The translations under genes were made by a program, and so were the position numbers. A DNA stretch of 64,000 nt, taken from an uncultured Sphingomonas sp. GTDB taxonomy: Bacteria; Pseudomonadota; Alphaproteobacteria; Sphingomonadales; Sphingomonadaceae. Each line of letters starts with the position of its first letter. Position 1 is the stretch's first letter. The stretch lies in the NCBI GenBank assembly GCA_913776045.1, contig CAJYOI010000032.1, forward strand, positions 62,001-126,000, read 5' to 3'. Of this stretch, positions 35,228 through 36,316 are shown piece after piece. Below the pieces are notes generated by a model. The model was not told the DNA's origin. It saw nothing but the letters and a program-made list of their open reading frames with translations, and did no database searches.

Positions 35228-35717
35228 GGGCGAGCGAATGCGCACTCTTTTCCGACAGTTTCGTGACACCGTGGCAGCCGCGGCGCGCCGCCGCAAGCGC
35301 CCGAACGACGAGGGCGTGACCCTGGTCGAGATGATCGTCGTGCTGGTCATCATCGCAGTGATCGCCGGGATGATCGTCAGCACCGGCATTCTCAGCCGCC
35401 CCGACCAGGCCCGTGTGACGACGACGACCACCGACATGCGCACGATCAGCGCCGCGCTGAAGATGTATCGCCTGGATAATGGCGACTATCCGACGACCGC
35501 GCAGGGGCTGAAGGCGCTGGCGGAGAAACCGACGACCGCGCCGATTCCGAGCAACTGGAACCCGGAAGGCTATGTCGGCCAGCCGCCCAAGGACGCGTGG
35601 GGGCGGGATTACGTCTATGTCTCGCCCGCACCCGGCGGGTTTTCGCTGAAGAGCCTGGGCAAGGACGGTGCCGAGGGTGGCGAGGGCCTTGACGCGGATA
35701 TCGTGGCGGGGCGGTGA
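35226..35717 (+). CDS. gspG: Type II secretion major pseudopilin GspG
   Basis: 163 aa. Leader of 30 residues, then cleavage at DEG/VTLVEMIVVLVIIAVIAG with Glu at +5. Conserved GspG features: SAALKMYRLDNGDYPTTAQGL, PPKDAWGRDYVYVSP and a calcium-loop-like GAEGGEGLDADI. The start is ATG 35226 or 35238; with the first, the start codons of gspG and gspL overlap on opposite strands. First gene of gspG-H-I-C-D, all tightly coupled. Confidence 0.95.
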   Translation: MGERMRTLFRQFRDTVAAAARRRKRPNDEGVTLVEMIVVLVIIAVIAGMIVSTGILSRPDQARVTTTTTDMRTISAALKMYRLDNGDYPTTAQGLKALAEKPTTAPIPSNWNPEGYVGQPPKDAWGRDYVYVSPAPGGFSLKSLGKDGAEGGEGLDADIVAGR

Positions 35718-36316
35718 GCGGGGACTTGCGTCTCTTATCCTCCCCGGCACGGGGAGGGGAACCACGCGTAGCGTGGTGGAGGGGGACCTGCGCGCGTGAC
35801 TCGTTGGAGGCCCGCCCCCTCTACCACCCGCTGCGCGGGCGGTCCCCCTCCCCGTGCCGGGGAGGATTTGAAGACGGCATGACCCTGGTCGAGATGCTGA
35901 TCGTCCTCGCGATCATCGGCATCGCTTCTGGCGGGATCGCGCTGGCGATCGGGTCGGCGACCCGCGCCCCGTCGGTCGAATCGGAGGCACGGCGTTTCGC
36001 GACGCGGCTGGAGGCGGCGGGGGACGATGCGATGCTGGGCGACCGGATGGTCGCGCTGACCGTCGACGACAGCGGCTACGGCTTCGCCAAGGTCGCCTCG
36101 GACGGGGTGATGCCGAAGGGCACGCCGAAACTCGATTATCACAGCCTGCCCGGCGGGGTCGCGATGACGCTCGACCAGCCACCGCCGCTGGTGCTCGGCG
36201 TCGATGGTCTGTCGAAGCCGCTCACCGCGACACTGGTCAGCGGCGACCAGACCTGGGTGGTGCGCTACGACGGCCTGACCTCGACCGTCACCCGCGCGGG
36301 AGCGCAGCCGACGTGA
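35714..36316 (+). CDS. gspH: Type II secretion minor pseudopilin GspH with repeat-bearing leader
   Basis: 200 aa from GTG 35714, which overlaps the gspG stop as GTGA. The prepilin site is FEDG/MTLVEMLIVLAIIGIASG, cleaved after residue 55 with Glu at +5. Because Gly at -1 is needed, translation must begin upstream of the ATG at 35879. Residues about 9-51 are encoded by family-A repeat copy 5, inserted in frame without a stop. The mature domain is an ordinary GspH. An in-frame TTG at 35804 is another conceivable start. Confidence 0.88.
   Translation: MSGDLRLLSSPARGGEPRVAWWRGTCARDSLEARPLYHPLRGRSPSPCRGGFEDGMTLVEMLIVLAIIGIASGGIALAIGSATRAPSVESEARRFATRLEAAGDDAMLGDRMVALTVDDSGYGFAKVASDGVMPKGTPKLDYHSLPGGVAMTLDQPPPLVLGVDGLSKPLTATLVSGDQTWVVRYDGLTSTVTRAGAQPT
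35737..35867. repeat. Family-A palindromic repeat, copy 5, within gspH leader
   Basis: Starts ATCCTCCCCGGCACGGGGAG and ends CCGTGCCGGGGAGGAT. The outer arms of about 20 bp are nearly perfect reverse complements; the inner arms are [21 protein letters not shown] and CCCCTCTACCACCCGCTGCG-like. All codons in the gspH frame are open. Confidence 0.9.

Follow-up and report, generated by a model that had tools for sequence, protein, structure and literature searches.

Palindromic repeats in frame within the prepilin leaders of type II secretion genes in Sphingomonas

Described repeats and prepilin leaders

The palindromic elements of Rickettsia (RPEs) are repeats of approximately 150 bp that are located in frame inside unrelated proteins (PMC10969869). 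The MIRU elements are said to insert at start codons, with an open reading frame (ORF) inside the repeat that is coupled to the gene by a -4 spacing (PMC12548453, citing Supply 1997). Furthermore, head-to-head dimers of REPs of the CGTC type have been described in many species, including sphingomonads; E. litoralis and S. alaskensis have REPs in truB and in tRNA synthetase genes, and REPs are also known from sites close behind the stop codon of the upstream gene, with the reservation that many of the N-terminal REPs may be extragenic (PMC3733652). As far as the accessible text of these studies goes, in-frame palindromic repeats, coupled ORFs and intragenic REPs in sphingomonads are already known. 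The leaders of type IV prepilins are of variable length and end with Gly or Ala (PMC10191384), and for the five S. sanguinis prepilins a range of 8–18 residues is given (PMC6497953). Our search of the open-access literature yielded no report of repeats located in prepilin leaders, and genes of the type II secretion system (T2SS) may be included in the supplementary gene list of the REP study (PMC3733652).

Here, we describe a stretch of 64,000 nucleotides from an uncultured Sphingomonas sp. (the window), in which palindromic repeats lie in frame within the leaders of gspH and gspJ. An earlier note on this DNA had compared the gspH repeat with the in-gene elements of Rickettsia, and the likeness holds at the level of behavior, in that other palindromic copies are located in frame within unrelated proteins of the same genome. 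Unlike the RPEs as presented in PMC10969869, the Sphingomonas copies often lie in a leader that is probably removed by cleavage, the same place is used by several families that are not related, and some copies form mini-ORFs that couple neighboring genes. The leaders also differ from the other long prepilin leaders in the sources above, in that their length comes from inserted repeats and reaches up to 99 residues, as counted from the junction with the upstream gene.

The gspH leader and the copies of its repeat

The major pseudopilin gene gspG (35238–35717, forward strand; 146 bits against TIGR01710, above the cut-off of 88.85) is followed on the same strand by a gene of 200 codons that reads without an interrupting stop from a GTG at 35714 to a stop at 36316. 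The GTG overlaps the TGA of gspG (35715–35717) in a GTGA junction, and it was from this junction that the start had been placed at 35714 in the earlier note, in agreement with the open frame. We identify the gene as gspH, which encodes a minor pseudopilin, from its position between gspG and gspI, its match to TIGR01708 (E-value 3.3e-16, with a score of 59.7 bits that is below the curated cut-off of 80) and a structure model of moderate confidence (mean pLDDT 69.4). The best PDB match to the model is EpsH from the type II system of V. cholerae, and the top five matches comprise four EpsH structures and one FimU structure, with one match passing an E-value of 0.001. Codon 55 (35876–35878) codes for the Gly at position -1 that had been assigned to it, followed by Met +1 at codon 56 (35879–35881) in the sequence GMTLVEM, which thereby contains both the Gly -1 and the Glu +5 of a class III signal peptide. 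The leader, 55 residues long (35714–35878) and ending with this Gly, is without secondary structure in residues 1–50 of the model (mean pLDDT below 50). Two genes with the A24 peptidase domain PF01478 were identified in the genome.

Most of the leader is made up of a palindromic repeat of family A (35737–35867, forward strand), the outer arms of which are 32 nt long and 91% complementary. The segment 35725–35875 folds at -115.5 kcal/mol with a z-score of -10.8, a value equalled by none of 200 shuffles, and on this basis a chance hairpin was rejected. The start GTG, the repeat and the Gly at -1 share a single open frame. This supports the claim that the repeat is translated as the leader, if not the word "must" that came with it, since TTG codons at positions 5 and 31 and the ATG at +1 are also in frame.

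The gspH repeat is a dispersed element. A DNA search of the window's genome (3.15 Mb in 68 contigs) located family A in 79 places over the two strands, with most copies listed on both, and 52 occurrences of the hairpin motif CTCCCCGNNNCGGGGAG were counted, compared to 0 for the reversed control. Among the sites listed, 31 were examined, and 18 of these are directly behind the stop codon of a co-directional gene. The 18 sites include four N-terminal fusions, eight mini-ORFs that bridge to the next gene, with a start on the upstream stop or at most 8 nt from it, and six sites with neither. The fusions begin at a GTG on the upstream stop and concern gspH, murB, a class-V aminotransferase gene (which we take to be sufS-like) and an N-formylglutamate amidohydrolase gene. 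Five further copies are in frame inside proteins: LigD (L008), GlyS (L303), a Glu/Gln-type tRNA synthetase (L020; presumably GluQ-RS), a Mur ligase (L022; presumably MurD), for which the N-terminal part was judged by eye despite a low upstream coding score, and an ImuB-like protein (L004). The N-terminal copies in the murB, aminotransferase and amidohydrolase genes indicate that cleavage is not required for a repeat to be tolerated, and it is thus probably not the sole reason for the tolerance.

Within the window, a third family-A copy was observed at 30635–30768, between the converging gspF and the gene at 29856–30632. A similar palindromic repeat is in frame in a gene of Novosphingobium aquimarinum (L055, 2501–2641) that we assume to be truB. 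No match to the Y1 transposase domain PF01797 was obtained in the window's genome at an E-value of 0.001, with a control search matching in 5 of 14 genomes, and a RAYT-driven REPIN was rejected on this ground.

A second and unrelated repeat, of family B (28769–28860, reverse strand), is located in the gspJ leader of the window, which is 44 residues long (28751–28882, reverse strand) and has a GTGA start on the stop codon of the upstream gene, with the repeat in frame. The family-B motif was identified 69 and 70 times in the genome, allowing for at most two mismatches, compared to 0 for the control. The gspJ repeat carries a terminal CGTC tag at both ends (CGTC...GACG) and in this respect resembles the CGTC REPs as they are characterized in PMC3733652. 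Unlike these, the core of the gspH repeat ends with ATCCTCC/GGAGGAT and is without a CGTC end; a CGTC and a GACG are located a few bases outside the core as part of the best arms, and a close relative (L056) has the GACG on one side only. The leader of gspI in the window is short (11 residues; 36313–36345, forward strand) and repeat-free, and relatives with inserts in this leader are known. Thus, two of the four genes with a PF07963 prepilin-like domain in this genome (gspG, gspH, gspI and gspJ) contain repeats.

Both a repeat-free relative and relatives with a start between the repeat and the cleavage site had been suggested as informative comparisons. The former is found in S. guangdongensis (L054/L059), where the gspH leader is 14 residues long, contains no repeat and begins at an identical GTGA start; by GspH identity, L059 is among the five genomes closest to that of the window. 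In the closest relatives, repeats of differing sequence occupy the same place of gspH, namely in L056 (98% GspH identity), L058 (80%), L060 (66%) and Sphingomonas sp. Leaf33, and an assembly artefact was therefore rejected. As for a later start, the in-frame canonical starts in L056, L058 and L060 are all upstream of the palindrome, with none inside it or between it and position +1. The leader in Leaf33 (L053/L057) carries a shorter copy in a different reading frame with 21 N inside, and as this frame depends on the count of N, Leaf33 is kept outside the gspH inserts counted below.

Leaders and junctions across the genus

Among 295 genomes of the genus, 105 matched the mature GspH of the window at an E-value of at most 1e-30, and 103 matched its GspJ at an E-value of at most 1e-12. 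Scored by a test against shuffles, palindromic inserts were identified in 25/104 gspH leaders (junction G/H), 40/105 gspI leaders (H/I) and 24/102 gspJ leaders (X/J, where X is the upstream gene). The genomes L053 and L054, duplicates of L057 and L059, are left out of these insert counts but enter those based on 106 and 107 loci; no gspG match was obtained for gspH in L071 and no upstream gene for gspJ in L175. Long gaps that failed the palindrome test (10 of 35 at G/H, 3 of 43 at H/I and 3 of 27 at X/J) were also left out, and 14 of these 16 are likewise open, the exceptions being L096 and L107. The gene order L- G+ H+ I+ C+ D+ is complete in 95 of 107 loci, with the same order over shorter or longer stretches in the other 12.

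All 25 gspH inserts are open in the gspH frame, whereas the alternative frames are open in 8 and 9 of them. The cleanest case is gspI, where all 40 inserts are open, each shares its frame with a start codon (ATG, GTG or TTG) overlapping the stop of gspH, and the gaps are all 2 mod 3 over 18 different lengths. For gspJ, 24 of 24 inserts are open from the palindrome onward and 23 across the whole gap; X/J was therefore dropped from the estimate of the chance of such agreement under random frames, and the figures refer to G/H and H/I. With one row per cluster at 90% identity, this chance is 1.8e-6 for G/H (20 clusters) and 9.4e-6 for H/I (30 clusters). At 80% identity this loosely defined test is far weaker, with chances of 5.4e-4 (11 clusters) and 4.8e-4 (15 clusters), respectively.

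The residue at -1 is Gly in every gspH, gspI and gspJ locus examined, including 107/107 for gspH. Position +1 is Phe in gspI in 107/107 loci (105 genomes plus the two duplicates) and in gspJ in 103/103, so that translation of these two genes cannot start at +1. The doubt raised in the text of PMC3733652, that repeats at N-termini may be extragenic, is answered in gspH, gspI and gspJ by the conserved cleavage site that follows the repeat. In gspH, +1 is Met rather than Phe in 79/104 loci, including all 25 with inserts compared to 54/79 without (Fisher test, 4e-4). This is a raw association, and Met +1 as a condition for gspH inserts was rejected, as pairs on the tree gave no support and too few of them differed for a test.

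The start codons upstream of the repeats are more varied. In 11 of the 25 G/H inserts, the sole upstream start would be a CTG and the canonical starts are inside the repeat, and two of the 24 X/J inserts (L158 and L177) have no canonical start upstream. A CTG that overlaps the gspG stop codon is also the likely start in L064, L075, L081 and their relatives, where gspH lacks an ATG, GTG or TTG at its junction with gspG. The net charge of the leader, as counted from the junction, is positive in 23/25 gspH, 26/40 gspI and 17/24 gspJ cases. Two further junctions were observed in passing. The gap between gspG and gspH in L096 is 582 nt long with no palindrome and contains a separate ORF, the product of which looks secreted by eye. 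In L092, from another genus of the family, inspection by eye shows a palindrome in the gspI leader that is formed by GGTTCTCGACAGGCTCGAACC and its complement, with the frame open and a gap of 119 nt (2 mod 3).

Similar stop/start overlaps in front of genes without a prepilin leader have almost no long gaps. Gaps above 60 nt were found in 1/106 loci at gspI/gspC (L116, no palindrome by eye) and in 1/101 at gspC/gspD (L083), and long gaps in 0/40 at both gspL/gspM and gspM/gspE. Likewise, at the gspJ/gspK junction (J/K) a gap above 70 nt was seen in 1/102 cases, and this gap, scored as a palindromic insert, was non-coding; since gspK is also treated as a prepilin gene, such leaders are not always landing sites.

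The junction of gspE and gspF (E/F) follows a different pattern. In the window, a family-A repeat at 31999–32131 (reverse strand), recognized by its arms and its copies in the genome, is traversed by a mini-ORF of 47 codons (31991–32134, reverse strand), the ATG of which is on the gspE stop and the stop codon of which overlaps the GTG of gspF by one base. The comparison covers 40 of the 105 genomes, a non-random sample hand-picked for contig extent and including many with long leaders, of which 38 have both genes co-directional. The gap is 70–400 nt in 23 of these (24 with the window), shorter in 10 and longer in 5. Among the 24 gaps, 22 contain an ORF of 43–64 codons from the gspE stop to at most 4 nt from the gspF start, the exceptions being L295 and L288, the latter with a gap of 346 nt that contains no palindrome. 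A palindrome was detected in 21 of the 35 gaps tested; among these 21, the frame of gspF is open in 5 and the other two frames in 10 and 21; as these other open frames are not always the coupling frame, we rely on the count of mini-ORFs. In design, the stop/start overlaps by which they are coupled recall the MIRU elements as presented in PMC12548453. Unlike MIRU, the repeats in gspH, gspI and gspJ are fused to the gene with no ORF of their own, and the elements are palindromic. The mini-ORFs suggest that the rule is for the repeat to be translated through, which extends beyond its location in a leader.

How the repeats may be tolerated

We consider it probable that mobile palindromic repeats insert just behind stop/start overlaps and are retained wherever they are translated through and the resulting peptide is disposable. 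Several families of putatively mobile repeats would land in Sphingomonas operons just behind a stop codon that overlaps the next start. Because REPs are described close behind stop codons in the text of PMC3733652 and the genes of these operons overlap, such a landing place would correspond to the N-terminus of the next gene, and in gspH, gspI and gspJ to the coding sequence between the start codon and the Gly|+1 cleavage site. Copies would be kept when the frame stays open, and may be close to neutral there because the leader has no other task than to hold the N-terminus on the cytoplasmic side and to present the Gly at -1. Judging from the overlaps and the open frames, a ribosome that finishes the upstream gene may restart at the overlap and pass through the hairpin, and the prepilin peptidase would then remove a leader of approximately 34–99 residues and leave the mature protein unaltered. 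In front of gspF, which is without a disposable leader, the repeat would instead be retained as a separate mini-ORF that couples the two genes.

Several features of gspH could also be read as if the repeat were untranslated, with a start at the ATG of +1 or inside the repeat, the GGGGAGG at the end of the repeat as ribosome binding site and a leaderless product that resembles the mature protein. Position +1 is Met in all 25 gspH genes with inserts, in-frame canonical starts are present inside the palindrome in 17 of the 25, and the GGGGAGG ends 13 nt before the ATG in the window and 8 nt before it in Leaf33. However, neither the open frame nor the Gly at -1 would then be under selection, yet the frame is open in 25/25 cases and -1 is always Gly; gspI and gspJ show a like pattern with Phe at +1, and L056, L058 and L060 contain no start inside the palindrome. 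We regard this reading of gspH as quite unlikely, and the same frame counts, the Gly at -1, the Phe at +1 in gspI and gspJ, and L056, L058 and L060 led us to reject initiation at a new start codon downstream of the repeat. It is very improbable that a single old insert has drifted in all lineages, which would make the counts non-independent, although such a history would fit the identical or nearly identical inserts of related genomes (L082/L083, L120/L121) and the fall to 11 (G/H) and 15 (H/I) clusters at 80% identity. On a quick tree of GspG, GspH and GspI, in which gains and losses are indistinguishable, inserts appear or disappear at least 14 times at G/H and at least 20 times at H/I, which indicates that inserts have been gained or lost repeatedly. 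A loose rule applied over all junctions, including E/F and J/K, yields 15 sequence families, 7 of which have more than one member, and the repeat-free L059 is among the five nearest genomes by GspH identity. The tree changes and the frame test on clusters thus reject one old insertion.

Another hypothesis is that the repeats are selected, with the hairpins after gspG and gspE protecting the upstream mRNA or lowering downstream translation and thereby determining how much major relative to minor pseudopilin is made. The highly stable hairpin immediately behind the gspG stop and the recurrence at G/H, H/I, X/J and E/F would fit such a role. Against it, inserts are as frequent at H/I and X/J as at G/H, and at these two junctions the upstream gene is not that of the major pseudopilin; 52 of the 105 genomes are without an insert in either gspH or gspI, and families, lengths and positions vary freely. 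Selection as the general explanation is therefore unlikely. A combined reading, which we offer tentatively as a possibility, is that the prepilin leaders serve as self-erasing harbors for unrelated families of mobile repeats, with the coupling mini-ORF as the counterpart at gspE/gspF, and that some copies are perhaps kept because their hairpins tune the subunit ratios.

Our analysis confirms the observation made on gspH in the earlier note and supports its interpretation, and the pattern is broader than reported there, extending to gspI, gspJ and other genomes. Repeats at N-termini are easily written off as miscalled starts. The invariant Gly at -1 behind the repeat provides an internal check on the translation start that recurs over many genomes, in all three genes and with repeats of several families, and makes the in-frame domestication of mobile repeats directly testable. 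There is also a warning for annotation, in that a start called downstream of the repeat loses the cleavage site. The leaders of approximately 34–99 residues represent a natural graded series with which the tolerance of the prepilin peptidase and of the targeting pathway may be probed. Finally, the mini-ORFs suggest that repeats can also bridge the genes of an operon through coupled translation.
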